Shown piece by piece: positions 1,903-36,553 of a stretch of 64,000 nt of DNA (positions are counted from its first letter, which is position 1; each line of letters opens with the position of its first letter). Made by a program: the position numbers and the translations under genes. Origin of the DNA: Spirochaetales bacterium (GTDB taxonomy: Bacteria > Spirochaetota > Leptospiria > Leptospirales > Leptonemataceae); the NCBI GenBank assembly GCA_015075425.1, contig JABTUL010000001.1, positions 2,294,001 to 2,358,000 on the forward strand. The letters are read 5' to 3'. The notes below the pieces were generated by a model, which did not search any database, had not been told where the DNA came from, and worked only from the letters and a program-made list of their open reading frames with translations.

Positions 1903-4470
1903 GTGGCTTTGAAGCTTGATTCCCTGTGGTTTGTTCGCCGGACCTATCGTATTCAGCGTGCTCTGCTTTTGCTGGGGATTCCGGCCTACTATGTCCTCGG
2001 CTCTGTCCTTGCCCCGCAGCCCGGCTACCGCGACCCTGAGATCCTGCGCATCCTGGGCAGCTGTTTGTTTGCCCTGACCCTCCTCCTGAGCAAACTGCCA
2101 CCTGTAAAGCTGCGGATGAACGCTGTCATGACCACGATTTCCTTCCTCGCAGGAATCCATGCTCTTTACGTCCTGCACCTGAACGATCTATCTACCCATG
2201 CTTTTTTTAATTTATATTTTCTCCTTATGGTTCTTGCTGTCAGCTTTCCCTACAGCTTCAGCAGCAAGGGACTGCTGGCCCTTTTTCTCTTTCTGATCAA
2301 CGTCACTGCGGGCTATCTGGCCGCAGTAAAGTATTCCCCTGGAGAAATACTCTGGTATGAGCTGGTAGTACTCATGATCCTGAGCGCCGTCTGCTATATG
2401 GCTCTGCATTTTCGTTATAAAGCGCTTGAACTGGCCCACACCTCAGAGCGACGCTTCCGGGCACTGCTTTCCGCTTCACCGGACCTGCTTTTTCTCATGG
2501 ATAAAGAGGGACGGTATCTTGATCTGTATGTCCAGAACCAGGACCAGCTTTTCTTGCCGGTGCCCGATTGCCTGGGTAAGAAGAACAGCGAGTTTTTACC
2601 GGCAGACATCGCCAGGCGCGAAGTAGAGGCAATCGAGAAAACTCTGCAAACGGGTGAGCCCTGCCGCTACGAATATGAACTGCACTGGAAGGGAGAAATT
2701 CAGAGCTATGAAGCTATCACCGCTGCCACCGGAGAGAACCAGGTGCTTGTGGCCGCTCGTGACATTACAGATCGCAAGCAGGCGGAAAAGGCCCTGATTG
2801 AGCGCGCAGAACAACTGAGAAAGTATGAATTTATTGTAAACACTTCCCTGGAATACATGACACTGATCGATCGCAATTACCGCTATGAGGCAGTGAATCA
2901 GGCCTATTGCAACGCTCACAAGAAAAACAGAGAAGACATCATCGGTCATACAGTCGCCGATATCTGGGGCGATCAACTCTTTGAAGCACGTCTGCGCGGT
3001 CTACTGGATCGGGCTTTTGCCGGTGAAATTGTGCAGTATGATCTGCCCATTGCCTTTTCCGATGGTCAACTCAAACATTTTGAAATCGCCTACTATCCGT
3101 ATCGCACCGGGGAAGTTGTTTCGCATGTGGTTGTGGTGAGCCGGGACCAGACTTCAGAAAAAGTAGCCGAGCAACTGCGCGAATACGAAGCAAGGCACGA
3201 TTCGCTGACCAAACTGGGCAATCGCAAACAGTTCCGTGAGGCCCTGCAATCAAGCCTGAACCGCCTGCGCCGTGATCCTAATTACTGCTTCAGCACCATG
3301 GTCATCAATCTGGACCATTTCAAGATCGTAAATGATAGCCTGGGTCATGAAACCGGAGATAAACTTCTCATCGCTGTCGCCGACCGTTTGCGGACTTTAA
3401 TCCGCTCCATTGACTACCTGGCACGCTCCGCAGGCGGTGAATTTCTGCTCCTCATGGATTGTGTCGTGGACCAATCCCAGGTAGAACGCTACGCTGAAAG
3501 AATCCTTTTAGAGCTGCGTCACCCTTACTTCATTGATGGGGTTGAGATCTATGCTACAGCCAGCATAGGCATCTGCCTTGCAGATCGCGAAGAACATACT
3601 TCCAGCGGCGACTGCCTCCGTGAGGCAGACGCTGCGCTCTTTGAAGCCAAGAAACTCGGAAGAGATCGTTTTGATTTTTTTTCCCGCCGCCTGTACGAAG
3701 CGGCCGTCCATCATATCCAGCTGGGCTCCGAACTCCGCCTGGCCATGGAGCGCGATGAACTCGAAGTCTTCTATATGCCCATCTACTCCCCCGGCAGACA
3801 GAAGGTCACCGGTTATGAAGCTTTGATTCGCTGGAATCATCCAGAGCGGGGACTCTTACCTCCGGCCTATTTCATTGAATTTGCCGAAGAGACCGGTCTG
3901 ATTGTAAAACTCGGCGAGATCGTGCTGCGCAAGGCGTGCCGGCAAATGCGCCAGTGGCAGAAGGAAGGAATGGATGGCTTTCTCGCGGTCAATATTTCCG
4001 CGCGCCAATTTCGCCAGAGGGGATTTGTGGACATGATCCATGAAATACTCCAACAATCAGATCTTTCTGCGAATACACTGGAACTGGAAATTACGGAATC
4101 GTCATTTCTCGAGCGCAGCGATGCAGCCCTGACTCTTCTGGAATCTCTTTCGGGCTCCGGAATCCGGCTCAGCATAGATGATTTTGGCACAGGCTACTCT
4201 TCCTTGAGCTATCTTAAACATTTCCCCTTTCACACCCTCAAAATTGATCGTAGTTTCCTCTTTGGTTCCGACCGCGGACAGAATCGGGAAATCATCCGCT
4301 CAATCATTGAACTGGCCCATGCTCTGGAACTGAAGGTCGTCGCTGAAGGAATCGAAACCCAGGAACAGATGCAACTCTTACTCAGTCTGGGCTGCGATGA
4401 GATGCAGGGCTACTTTATCGGTCACCCGCTGCCGGCCAGCGAAATCGGCCGAAAATTGGCTTTACCCTGA
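1903..4470 (+). CDS. Membrane-anchored PAS-GGDEF-EAL protein, probable c-di-GMP phosphodiesterase
   Basis: An 855-residue multidomain signalling protein. Residues about 20-170 hold several membrane helices, 180-300 and 300-430 are two PAS sensor domains, 430-590 is GGDEF-like, and 600-850 is EAL. The GGDEF signature reads AGGEF (ARSAGGEFLLL), missing the metal-binding Asp, so cyclase activity is doubtful. The EAL half is intact: YEALIRW, LEITES, DDFGTGYSSLSYL, KIDRSF, EGIET and QGYFIG are all present, so hydrolysis of c-di-GMP to pGpG at the inner membrane is expected. The start is GTG at 1903, because a stop lies two codons upstream and the first ATG is deep inside the membrane region. A PilZ receptor is encoded 16 kb away in the same window. 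Family assignment is secure; the direction of activity is inferred from motifs. Confidence 0.92.
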   Translation: MALKLDSLWFVRRTYRIQRALLLLGIPAYYVLGSVLAPQPGYRDPEILRILGSCLFALTLLLSKLPPVKLRMNAVMTTISFLAGIHALYVLHLNDLSTHAFFNLYFLLMVLAVSFPYSFSSKGLLALFLFLINVTAGYLAAVKYSPGEILWYELVVLMILSAVCYMALHFRYKALELAHTSERRFRALLSASPDLLFLMDKEGRYLDLYVQNQDQLFLPVPDCLGKKNSEFLPADIARREVEAIEKTLQTGEPCRYEYELHWKGEIQSYEAITAATGENQVLVAARDITDRKQAEKALIERAEQLRKYEFIVNTSLEYMTLIDRNYRYEAVNQAYCNAHKKNREDIIGHTVADIWGDQLFEARLRGLLDRAFAGEIVQYDLPIAFSDGQLKHFEIAYYPYRTGEVVSHVVVVSRDQTSEKVAEQLREYEARHDSLTKLGNRKQFREALQSSLNRLRRDPNYCFSTMVINLDHFKIVNDSLGHETGDKLLIAVADRLRTLIRSIDYLARSAGGEFLLLMDCVVDQSQVERYAERILLELRHPYFIDGVEIYATASIGICLADREEHTSSGDCLREADAALFEAKKLGRDRFDFFSRRLYEAAVHHIQLGSELRLAMERDELEVFYMPIYSPGRQKVTGYEALIRWNHPERGLLPPAYFIEFAEETGLIVKLGEIVLRKACRQMRQWQKEGMDGFLAVNISARQFRQRGFVDMIHEILQQSDLSANTLELEITESSFLERSDAALTLLESLSGSGIRLSIDDFGTGYSSLSYLKHFPFHTLKIDRSFLFGSDRGQNREIIRSIIELAHALELKVVAEGIETQEQMQLLLSLGCDEMQGYFIGHPLPASEIGRKLALP

Positions 4471-30383: not shown

Positions 30384-31424
30384 ATGGCCACCCTGCGAGT
30401 TCGCGCGGATGCAAACAATCGGGAACTCTGCCTGTCCTTTCCTTACGAAGAAAGCACCATTGCCACAATCCGATCTATTCCCGGCCGACGCTGGTCCAAA
30501 GAAGAGAAGATCTGGCGTATTCCCGACTCTGCGGCCAACCGCGAGTTGCTACTGCGGTATTTTGGTTCCCGCCTGAAATTTCAGGAAAGCGAGGCAACCG
30601 GTCGCGGGCTAAATGCTATGCAAAATGAAATGTTGATACGTAACTATAGCCCGCGCACTCGCCGCAACTACCTGGGCATTGTGCGACGCTTCTTGCGAGA
30701 CGTTTCCAGCAGCGGAACTGATCCCGAACCGGAGATGATGCGCGAGTATCTGCTGCAACTGACCGGACGAGGTCTGAGTTCAGCCACCGTGCGTCAATCG
30801 ATCAGCGCACTGCTGTTCTACTTCCGCCATGGCCTGGGCAAAACCGGTATGAACTATCGCTACCCGCGCCGGGAACAGCGTCTCCCGGCAGTGCTCTCCA
30901 CCCAGGAAGTGGGGTGCATCATCGCGGCCGGCCGAAACCCCAAACACCGCTTGCTGCTCGCCCTAACCTATTCTGCCGGCCTCCGCGTTAGCGAAGTAGT
31001 TGCGCTGAAATTATCAGACCTGGACCGCAATCGGCGAATGCTGCGGATACAACAGGGGAAGGGTCGCAAGGACCGCTTTTCCCTGCTTTCTTTAGCGGCA
31101 CTGGGATATCTGGATGCATATACCGACTACAGGGGCTCTCCCTGGCTTTTTCCCGGAGCCGAGCGCAGCAAGCATCTGAGCATCCGCAGCGCAGAAAAAA
31201 TCTTTGACTACGCCGCCGAGCTGGCCGGGATTCTAAAGGATGTCTCTATTCATGATTTGCGACACGCTTTTGCCACGCATCTGCTGGAGGCCGGGACGGA
31301 TCTGCGCTACATCCAGACGTTGCTCGGTCACAAAAGCAGCCGGACAACGGAAATCTACGCCCGTGTCAGCAATACAATCCTCCAGCGCATCGTCAGCCCA
31401 CTGGACCGCCTCCCTCATCCTTAG
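30384..31424 (+). CDS. intI: Integron-type tyrosine recombinase (integrase)
   Basis: A 346-residue tyrosine recombinase. Residues 1-70 form an extra N-terminal domain with RRWSKEEKIWRIP, as in many XerC/IntI-like proteins outside the proteobacteria. Residues 78-160 are the core-binding SAM-like domain and 165-346 the catalytic domain. The catalytic set is R201 (AGLRVSE), K226, H290 and R293 (HDLRHAF), H316 (LLGHKSS) and nucleophile Y325 (TTEIYARV). The C-terminus IVSPLDRLP matches the SPLDxLP ending of IntI proteins. The spacing between WLFPG and HDLRH is close to XerD, so the extra IntI helix between motifs seems absent or very short. It points in the same direction as the cassettes and lies 107 bases after glnA. 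It is expected to recombine attC with attI on the folded strand. Confidence 0.88.
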   Translation: MATLRVRADANNRELCLSFPYEESTIATIRSIPGRRWSKEEKIWRIPDSAANRELLLRYFGSRLKFQESEATGRGLNAMQNEMLIRNYSPRTRRNYLGIVRRFLRDVSSSGTDPEPEMMREYLLQLTGRGLSSATVRQSISALLFYFRHGLGKTGMNYRYPRREQRLPAVLSTQEVGCIIAAGRNPKHRLLLALTYSAGLRVSEVVALKLSDLDRNRRMLRIQQGKGRKDRFSLLSLAALGYLDAYTDYRGSPWLFPGAERSKHLSIRSAEKIFDYAAELAGILKDVSIHDLRHAFATHLLEAGTDLRYIQTLLGHKSSRTTEIYARVSNTILQRIVSPLDRLPHP

Positions 31425-34007: not shown

Positions 34008-34244
34008 GCTTAACTTTGCGGCTTAGCGCTCACTCCCTTCGCTATGCGCTCCGGTCGTTCGGCCCTGGTCTTCGCCCCGCCACCATTCCGGGAAAAGGGG
34101 TTGCAGAGGCTTTGAGGAAAGCCGGAATGGTGACGGGTCGTGCGGATGCGCGCCCGGTTTGGTCTATTCGTATGGCGCGCACCGCACCAGACTGCGGGCA
34201 AATTGGGCCTGGCGGCCCAACTTCGCTAAGCCGCGTCGTTATCT
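34008..34244 (+). repeat. attC3 (alpha family)
   Basis: Closes cassette 3 (start TTAAGCGCCAGGGCATG at 33323 matches CATGCCCCGCCGCTTAA here). R'' GCTTAAC, R' GTTATCT; 237 bp. Confidence 0.88.
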
Positions 34245-34397
34245 GCAATGCGCCCAAAATCTTTCCCACCAGTTGTCCTGACCGGCTGGAAGCAATCAAT
34301 AGGAGCTTCAGAGCATTGGAACGAGCAAGCCTTTCAGGAAGCTTTACTGATCTAAAAGGGCATAAGTCACAAAAGAATTATACAGAAAGTATTCAGC

Positions 34398-35006
34398 TTA
34401 AGTGACGAGATCGCAGATACGATTTCCGAGGGTAAACAGAAAATCAGATGCCTGCGTAGCCTCCGACATCGTGATCGACTGTTTTGTATTTGTCACAGGA
34501 TTGAGATCGGCTTCATGGACGATAGCATTTCTTCGAGTTGCTATCAGTTTCTGCTGGCGTTTAGCCTCTTCGTCGGACATGCCCAAACCAAGTGCGATGC
34601 ACTGCCACTTCTGATTTTCGTCCCAAATGAAACTCAATCCATCAGCGATCTTCCTCGGATCCTGAAATGAGAGCGTACTGAGTTTTTCCCGCACGATCTC
34701 TTCAAAACGGACCTCTGGTGGCGGCGTGGATCCAATCATCAACTGAGGCAGATCTTGAATAGAAATCCCCTCTTTGTGGTACTTCGGAGTTGGTGGTCTA
34801 TTACCTTGGAATATTTGAACCATTCCAATCCGGATCAAGTCATGCATCAGCTTGTCGAACGCGCTAACCGCATACACGATTTGCGATCGAAGGAGATCAT
34901 CGAACTGCTCCAGCATCGGAACGATGGTAATCAAAGAATCATAGAGCTCACTAAGTTCATTAGCTTGTCGAATATTGCGCTGAAAGACCTGCCTCGCGTT
35001 GAGCAT
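34398..35006 (-). CDS. Cassette 4: HEPN-domain protein (MAE_28990/MAE_18760-like)
   Basis: A 202-residue, mainly helical protein whose C-terminal half contains RRNAIVHEADLNP. This is the Rx4H motif of HEPN ribonuclease domains (R-N-A-I-V-H). The opening (FQRNIRQANELSELYDSLI...LRSQIVYAVSAFDKLMHDLIRIGM) matches the MAE_28990/MAE_18760 HEPN group. HEPN nucleases typically cut RNA in toxin-antitoxin and phage-abortive systems. It follows the ParA-like gene by 6 bases on the same strand, opposite to the array direction, so the pair must bring its own promoter. A candidate two-gene defence module; partner dependence is inference. Confidence 0.7.
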   Translation of the reverse strand: MLNARQVFQRNIRQANELSELYDSLITIVPMLEQFDDLLRSQIVYAVSAFDKLMHDLIRIGMVQIFQGNRPPTPKYHKEGISIQDLPQLMIGSTPPPEVRFEEIVREKLSTLSFQDPRKIADGLSFIWDENQKWQCIALGLGMSDEEAKRQQKLIATRRNAIVHEADLNPVTNTKQSITMSEATQASDFLFTLGNRICDLVT

Positions 35007-35012
35007 GATTTA

Positions 35013-36038
35013 TTAACTCATTAGTGATTGCAGCGTATTAGCGACTTGCAAGAATTGCTCCCTGATCTGTCCGCGTTTGTCCATCATGCCCTCTTGCACC
35101 ACACCAGTTGCAGCGAGTTCATTGTCTTCAAGAGAGAAAATCGGCACGCCAGCATCGTAGGAGCGCGGCAACAACGCACCGAAATCCGGGATCTCTTCAA
35201 GACAAAACCCTGCGCTAACAAGGCCCGGGGGATATTTATTGTCGGAGAGCGTTAGCCCAGCGCCCTTTAGCCTCGGAAACAAACGGTCTTGGGTGATTTT
35301 TTTTATCTCGGCGATGTTGTCTCGATATGGTGCGGCAGCACGACCGTTTCTCACGTTAAAGCGCTGAATCAATGTGCCGACGAACTTAGGCTGCCCGGGG
35401 CGCAGAGGGTATGCCGAATCCTGGAACGCTGTTTCGTTTTGAGCCTTCCATAATGCCCATCTCGGAATGATCGACTCCAAGGTCTCTAATGCCATGATAG
35501 AGAATGGATCGGGATTCGTCGGAACTATGAAAAAGTCAGCATTGAGAAAAAGATTTTGGTTTATCGCGCTCAACCCGGGGTTGAGATCAATGATGGTGTA
35601 ATCAATATCGTTCGCTTTTTCGATGGTTCTGATTAGCTCGTTGAACGCGCCTGGTAGGTTCTGCAATGTGGCCAAAGCATTTGAATTTTGTGCAAATGTA
35701 AGTGATGCGTCGTATTCAGACAATGTAGCATGGCCAGCCAGCAAGTGCAACCTCGACATGCGGGCCGGTGACCTACACAATACCGGCTGAATGGGTGTGG
35801 GTTTTCCCTTGAACGCAGGCTCCACACCATCTTTTATGTTCTGCAGGCGAGTTGCATCATTCAAGTAGTACGCGTCAAACTCGTCTCCCAGTATCAAGCT
35901 GGACAGGTTGCATTGTGGATCCGCATCAACCAGCAGAACGCGGTGCTCTTGGTCCGCCAGCATCCAGCCAAGGTTGTAGACGGTGGTTGTCTTACTAACG
36001 CCACCTTTGTGATTAAACAGAACCATTCTTTTCGCCAT
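35013..36038 (-). CDS. Cassette 4: ParA/MinD-type ATPase
   Basis: A 341-residue ParA-family ATPase. The deviant Walker A reads NHKGGVSKTTTVYNLGWMLA (Ser replaces the usual Gly before the second Lys), followed by LLVDADPQCNLSS and DYTIIDLNPGLSAINQNLFLNADFFIVPTNPDPFSIMALE. ParA proteins usually partition DNA or position cargo; those paired with HEPN genes are thought to sense or regulate the nuclease. There is no ParB gene or parS-like repeat in this 2.2-kb cassette, which argues against a plasmid partition role. ATG 36038 starts MAKRMVLFNHKGG. Upstream (36039-36223) there is room for its promoter. Confidence 0.85.
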   Translation of the reverse strand: MAKRMVLFNHKGGVSKTTTVYNLGWMLADQEHRVLLVDADPQCNLSSLILGDEFDAYYLNDATRLQNIKDGVEPAFKGKPTPIQPVLCRSPARMSRLHLLAGHATLSEYDASLTFAQNSNALATLQNLPGAFNELIRTIEKANDIDYTIIDLNPGLSAINQNLFLNADFFIVPTNPDPFSIMALETLESIIPRWALWKAQNETAFQDSAYPLRPGQPKFVGTLIQRFNVRNGRAAAPYRDNIAEIKKITQDRLFPRLKGAGLTLSDNKYPPGLVSAGFCLEEIPDFGALLPRSYDAGVPIFSLEDNELAATGVVQEGMMDKRGQIREQFLQVANTLQSLMS

Positions 36039-36223
36039 TTTGATCCTTCCATTAAGTTATTCGTTCCGACGGACAGCGTCTGCATCAAACCCGCAAAAGA
36101 AAGGTAAATACCATTTGATCCCCTCCGAGTCCACCAAAAAACGGGACATAATGATTCTTAAACTGTATTACAGACATGGGGCCCCCGAATAGGGCCTCAC
36201 TTGGCTTCCGTCAGGCGCACAGC

Positions 36224-36460
36224 AGATAACTTTGCGGCTTAGCGCTCACTCCCTTCGCTATCCGCTCCGGTCGCTCGGCCCTGGCCTTCTCCCCGCCACC
36301 ATTCCGGGAAAAGGGGTTGCAGAAGCTTTGAGGAAAACCGGAATGGTGACGGGTCGTGCGGATGCGCGCCCGGTTTGGTGGATGCGTATGGCGCGCACCG
36401 CACCAGACGGCGGGCAAATTGGGCCTGGCGGCCCAACTTCGCTAAGCCGCGTCGTTATCT
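36224..36460 (+). repeat. attC4 (alpha family)
   Basis: Closes cassette 4 (start TTATCTGCAATGCGCCC at 34239). R'' AGATAAC, R' GTTATCT; 237 bp. Confidence 0.88.
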
Positions 36461-36553
36461 GCAATGTCCGCGCATGAGAGAACGAAATAACTTATTTGAC
36501 AATATTGGGCTTTCACATTTATACAGCTTTACAGTATATTTCAGGAGCTTCGT

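Follow-up and report, generated by a model that had tools for sequence, protein, structure and literature searches.

A two-gene cassette in the 64,000-nucleotide stretch of Spirochaetales DNA analysed here (the window) probably represents a mobile module in which a toxic HEPN ribonuclease stands under the control of a ParA-type ATPase, with infection as the probable trigger. An antiphage role appears likely. Because the same gene order recurs in unrelated bacteria, in conjugative plasmids and in filamentous phages, a mobile module for toxicity or abortive infection is the most likely reading of the pair, in preference to a partition system. We infer from sequence that HEPN cuts RNA and is toxic, that ParA controls it directly, that infection sets it off and that it acts against phages.

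A two-gene cassette in an integron-like array

The pair fills a single unit of 2,216 bp in an integron-like array. The features concerned, in window positions, are as follows.

34239–36454, no strand: integron-like cassette, bounded by R'-like cores GTTATCTG; a near-identical 2.2-kb unit lies at genome C1:~2430150–2432350
34011–34250, plus strand: attC-like repeat closing the previous cassette, 95.8% identical to the repeat at 36227–36466
36227–36466, plus strand: attC-like repeat closing the ParA–HEPN cassette, from repeat comparison within the window
30384–31424, plus strand: XerC/IntI-like tyrosine recombinase at the array head, outside the pair and given for context (NCBIfam profile scores)
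35013–36038, minus strand: ParA-type ATPase, 341 aa, first gene of the pair (AAA_31, E 2.7e-27)
34398–35006, minus strand: HEPN protein, 202 aa, second gene (PF18735, E 1.8e-10; PHROG 13503, E 1.5e-65; all-helical AlphaFold model)
35988–36008, minus strand: Walker A motif KGGVSKT, ParA residues 11–17 (from the sequence; identical in P1 ParA)
34515–34532, minus strand: putative HEPN active-site motif RNAIVH, R159–H164 (invariant residues in the HEPN alignments)
36044–36050, minus strand: GGAAGGA, resembling a ribosome-binding site, 5 nt before the parA ATG (read directly from the sequence)

The cassette limits given in the earlier note were right: each R'-like core GTTATCTG, one at 34238 and one at 36454, falls within an attC-like repeat of ~240 bp. 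Matches to these repeats occur at ~24 places between 32334 and ~57950, every one of them on the plus strand. Over this stretch the repeats form two related types (A and B), interleaved, in one orientation and ~200–250 bp long. The recombinase at the array head scores 168.5 bits against the integron integrase model TIGR02249 (cut-off 265), and its best NCBIfam match is XerA_Arch, at 188.8 (cut-off 220). It carries ~75 additional N-terminal residues in which no Pfam domain was found. By its sequence, the array together with its recombinase is an atypical integron-like system.

Since the attC-like repeats and the recombinase all lie on the plus strand and both genes of the pair on the minus strand, the pair reads against the array, as had been claimed from first inspection; the two open reading frames had also been placed correctly, 6 nt apart. 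The parA gene has a good ribosome-binding site, whereas the HEPN gene, starting 6 nt past the parA stop, shows no clear one of its own on inspection of the sequence, which suggests that HEPN is translationally coupled to parA. A promoter scan returned no minus-strand site upstream of parA, and neither a terminator scan nor an Rfam search of the cassette gave a match.

No ParB or other centromere-binding gene is present in the cassette, where HEPN follows ParA and the unit then ends, and no parS-like or iteron repeats were detected in it, just two short two-copy matches inside coding sequences; the absence of ParB and parS from the cassette, noted previously, is thereby confirmed. The phage and plasmid copies of the pair that were inspected likewise contain no ParB.

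A second, near-identical ParA–HEPN cassette lies ~102 kb away in the host genome (L036, genome C1:2428000–2434000). It matches the window cassette with 98.3% identity over 2,226 columns, with 7 mismatches and 25 small gaps, many of the latter in homopolymers, and in the assembly both of its genes are broken by frameshifts. As the gaps outnumber the mismatches and many are homopolymeric, it is doubtful that this copy is a true pseudogene, and the frameshifts probably stem from long-read errors that were left uncorrected in a repeat, and less from decay. If they are sequencing errors, the array holds two copies of the module.

The ParA-type ATPase

ParA ATPases are DNA-segregation motors. The ATPase of the pair matches Pfam AAA_31, and its AlphaFold model (pLDDT 83.2) has ParA/Soj proteins as its nearest solved folds (Foldseek; best 3pg5, E 2.7e-12). 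The earlier note had described its Walker A motif as altered, which is wrong: KGGVSKT fits the ParA consensus KGGxxK[ST], is identical to the heptapeptide of P1 ParA, and is the usual deviant Walker A of ParA proteins. The protein nevertheless falls below every NCBIfam cut-off for partition ParAs, the best score being 62.9 against 180 for NF041546, with 44.5 against 348 for TIGR03453. No DNA-binding domain was found in it by Pfam scan.

Maximum-likelihood analysis places the HEPN-linked ParAs on a single branch (SH-aLRT 100) and ParAs linked to SIR2 proteins in a second group (SH-aLRT 98). Both stand apart from P1 ParA, an IncX1 ParA and five further ParA-like proteins encoded in the host genome (SH-aLRT 93). 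Because the branches are long and the search was quick, we rely on the grouping in this tree only and not on the branching order.

The HEPN protein

The second protein matches PF18735 (HEPN_RiboL-PSP) with 41.4 bits against a gathering cut-off of 28.4, as well as PHROG 13503, a phage family of unknown function. The RNAIVH motif reported earlier is indeed present, and R159, N160, I162, H164, E165 and D167 are invariant in both HEPN alignments (A1 and A3), so that the motif across relatives reads RNxI[VA]HE. On the strength of this motif and of its family membership, the protein is probably RNA-cutting.

Structural comparison was uninformative as to a solved HEPN fold. The AlphaFold model is all-helical (pLDDT 91.6), and a Foldseek search of the PDB gave no significant match (best E 0.3), with the HEPN toxin 7ae6 scoring no better than E 3.7 (TM 0.36) and HepT chains at E ~3–4; a sequence-profile search against the PDB was likewise uninformative. 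No relative of this HEPN was found among the IMG/VR viral contigs.

Conservation and mobility of the pair

A search for conserved ParA–HEPN neighbours, suggested in the earlier note, found the pair to be widespread, without ParB, on mobile elements and adjoining defence genes. Besides the window, a ParA gene lies directly 5' of a PF18735 HEPN gene at at least 19 loci. When ~85,000 species genomes were scanned with the HEPN query, 12 loci were recovered, all 12 with a ParA gene directly 5' on the same strand; the scan finds close relatives only, because it is based on short peptide patterns. These loci belong to Burkholderia, Uliginosibacterium, Rugamonas, Acetobacteraceae, Rhodomicrobium, Erwinia, Sphingomonas, Pandoraea, a 'Deltaproteobacteria' MAG, Desulfobacterales, Rhodocyclaceae and a Burkholderiales MAG, and their ParAs are 39–80% identical to that of the window. 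That all 12 loci repeat the pair, its order and its strand indicates an association beyond chance.

Profile searches added three further loci (L073, L083 and L101). The pair is also carried by plasmids of Burkholderia glumae, the majority of which are typed as conjugative, by a B. arboris replicon and by two Pf-type filamentous Pseudomonas phages, AY324828 and WX-TY. AY324828 was deposited as a Pf1 prophage, its ParA annotated as 'Orf317, similar to Soj'. The HEPN gene of this phage (L016, 9741–10268) is without GenBank annotation and ends early, encoding 175 aa against the 202 aa of its relatives, with the motif kept.

At 13 loci the gap between the two reading frames was measured, and it ranges from −8 to +6 nt. 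HEPN has a mean column identity of 62% and ParA one of 73%, and the distances of the two proteins are correlated across 13 loci (r 0.84; 0 of 5000 Mantel permutations). Taken together, the sequences provide strong evidence that ParA and HEPN form a conserved functional unit. The pair is rare: seed genomes aside, the pair was found in 2 of 369 genomes in an even sample of the class of the Burkholderia locus and in 1 of 385 in that of the Sphingomonas locus, and within the phylum of the window it occurs in the window's own genome only.

At three loci an intact HEPN gene adjoins a damaged ParA gene, which has lost Walker A in Pandoraea (L013), carries a KGR Walker A in B. lata (L004) and is frameshifted in Rhodomicrobium (L009). 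Errors in draft genomes could lie behind some of these lesions. A break in the HEPN gene of a further locus (L007) is explained by Ns at a join and was not taken as a real lesion. Among neighbours chosen as examples, and thus carrying no enrichment statistic, are a NACHT protein with DUF6602 in B. lata, a type I restriction–modification system at L012 and a phage-type integrase at L006; L009 has prophage-like genes, L005 an ICE helicase with DUF932, and L015 a resolvase.

Exchange of partners

Distant PF18735 HEPNs lie directly behind AAA_21 ATPases in genomes of the window's phylum (L020–L025 and L027), and the one such ATPase scanned matches PADLOC AbiLi (E 8.8e-89). These loci may be AbiL-like systems with a HEPN effector. 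In the Burkholderia-class sample, the PF18735 loci that were read encode a GmrSD_N-type protein directly upstream in nine cases and ParA in three; ParA is present at every locus with a strong HEPN-profile score (about 89 bits or more).

The ParA side is also found in other company. Its nearest other relatives, ~27–36% identical over the full length, occur in three settings: paired with SIR2, solo, or with a 236-aa partner. A ParA gene followed directly by a gene for a SIR2 protein related to ThsA/Dsr was found in Vibrio ponticus, Photobacterium, Neorhizobium, Burkholderia stagnalis, Spirosoma and Salmonella, the V. ponticus ParA being 29% identical to that of the window. ParA–SIR2 pairs are conserved at L044 and L046–L050, on plasmids, and their reading frames overlap in the pairs that were read. 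Solo relatives adjoin cI-like repressors in the P22-like phage SE1 and in an E. coli prophage (L037, 3001–4074; L045, 4001–5077), and the solo prophage gene is present in 109 of 5426 complete E. coli genomes; such a position suits exclusion genes expressed in the lysogen. At L051 a ParA relative overlaps a 236-aa protein (3492–4202) of PHROG 23933, of unknown function, which may be a further effector used by this group of ParAs. The alternative partners AbiLi-type ATPase, GmrSD and SIR2 are from defence or conflict systems.

Relation to known systems

A survey of HEPN domains published in 2013 (Anantharaman et al.) described a less common dyad of HEPN with a ParA/Soj-like ATPase and predicted it to be a toxin–antitoxin system, with the ATPase as antitoxin and the HEPN ribonuclease as toxin (PMC3710099). 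The pair of the window and those at the at least 19 other loci share with this dyad a ParA/Soj-type gene directly 5' of the HEPN gene, and their RNxI[VA]H corresponds to its Rx4-6H motif. The contrast between them is one of family assignment: the HEPN of the dyad was placed in the MAE_18760 family and ours belongs to PF18735, which the same survey listed under RiboL-PSP-HEPN as an 'operon with ParB' (PMC3710099). The window HEPN gave no match to PF18737 (HEPN_MAE_28990) at E<=1. Searches of the open-access PMC literature found no characterised ParA–HEPN or ParA–SIR2 system. Since the 2013 architecture is shared, the assigned HEPN family differs and no open-access experimental study was found, the window pair is, as judged from its sequence, a PF18735 variant of an architecture already predicted; as an idea, the two-gene form had its precedent in 2013.

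Other systems resemble the pair in part. HEPN/MNT (HepT/MntA) also consists of two genes, a regulator followed by a HEPN with Rx4H, yet there the place of the ParA-type ATPase (AAA_31) is taken by an MNT nucleotidyltransferase, and our HEPN has no significant fold match to HepT. AbiL, too, has an ATPase (AbiLi) ahead of a second gene, and distant PF18735 HEPNs follow AbiLi-type ATPases; its ATPase, however, is of AAA_21/ABC type, unlike the ParA type with deviant Walker A found here. The unnamed ParA–SIR2 pairs have a related full-length ParA directly 5' of the effector gene but differ in the effector, a SIR2 protein related to ThsA/Dsr. KKP, the kinase–kinase–phosphatase module of Pf6 (PMC11341870), is similarly an accessory defence or toxin module of Pf filamentous prophages, although its proteins are unrelated to ParA and HEPN. 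PADLOC-DB 2.0 yielded no confident system match for the pair, only weak partial ones (RTasHEPN, E 0.006; PDC-M28B across the Walker A region, E 3e-8), and identity with a known PADLOC system was rejected for want of a matching model.

Discussion

The module might work as follows. The ParA-type ATPase would be made first, with HEPN translated from the same transcript by coupling, and the HEPN ribonuclease would be the toxic effector. ParA would control HEPN according to its ATP or dimer state, either holding it inactive or licensing it, until something, in all likelihood an infecting phage or other element, triggered HEPN to cut RNA and thereby halt growth or phage production. Control of HEPN by ParA is suggested by the gene order, the apparent coupling, the co-divergence of the two proteins and the modular exchange of partners. 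The abortive-infection or defence role that the earlier note had favoured gains from the mobile carriage, the defence-gene neighbours and the defence-type alternative partners.

Two forms of such a module can be envisaged, which divide its probability equally between them and do not add to it; either one, taken alone, is possible but well short of even. The pair may be a plain type II-like toxin–antitoxin system, HEPN being the toxin and ParA the antitoxin, whose main role would be to keep its carrier stable, be it array, plasmid or prophage, and which would have no antiphage role. Gene order favours such an antitoxin role for ParA, as an ATPase followed by a coupled toxin is also the layout of HEPN/MNT and of the proposed ParA/Soj dyad (PMC3710099), and addiction modules are common in conjugative plasmids, prophages and integron-like arrays of the kind that hold the pair. 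Yet this antitoxin would be large (341 aa) and, by Pfam scan, without a DNA-binding domain; partnerless ParA relatives persist in cI-repressor neighbourhoods; and the damaged ParA genes beside intact HEPN genes at three loci are, on the sequences available, awkward for a strict antitoxin.

Those same loci are one reason for considering ParA an activator. In a sensor–effector form of abortive infection, HEPN would depend on ParA for its activation instead of being neutralised by it, and the survival of intact HEPN genes beside damaged ParA genes suggests that HEPN alone is not lethal, although sequencing error or decay of the module may account for the damage. Modularity also points this way, the same ParA group occurring with SIR2 and the same HEPN family with an AbiLi-type ATPase.

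An improbable alternative is that the pair regulates transcription and steers the behaviour of the prophage or array, like KKP in Pf6. Accessory genes of Pf can govern lysogeny and defence together (KKP, PMC11341870), and Pf phages do carry the ParA–HEPN pair; however, the pair spans hosts and elements that have no common regulatory circuit, and a DNA-binding domain was not found. A partition system was rejected, since ParB and parS are missing and the scores lie under the partition-ParA cut-offs, and it is very improbable that HEPN stands in for ParB as the adaptor of a DNA-partition or positioning system: the fold and sequence of the ATPase are those of partition ATPases and some members of the pair are on plasmids, but parS-like repeats and ParB are lacking, the score of 62.9 is far short of 180, the pair resides in chromosomes and filamentous phages, the HEPN active-site motif is conserved, the HEPN-linked ParAs occupy a separate branch of the tree, and IncX1 plasmids hold a distant relative next to a complete ParA/ParG pair.

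The mobile module of ParA and HEPN may belong to something larger. With somewhat less than even confidence, we suggest that ParA-type ATPases have been recruited beyond partition as the sensing or regulating half of a modular antiphage family with interchangeable effectors, for which integrons, filamentous phages, plasmids and prophages have been the vehicles. The effectors would include the HEPN ribonuclease, a SIR2 NADase-like protein and possibly others, with solo forms beside cI-like repressors of lambdoid prophages. If so, one group of ParA ATPases would be tied to toxin-like effectors instead of ParB, and ParA function would extend to immunity. The partnerless 'ParA family protein' genes of phages and prophages would receive a testable account, and unannotated accessory genes of Pf filamentous phages would receive a function, Pf being a laboratory model that permits deletion of the module. 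Integron-like arrays, finally, would provide more evidence of toxin or defence cassettes among their cargo.
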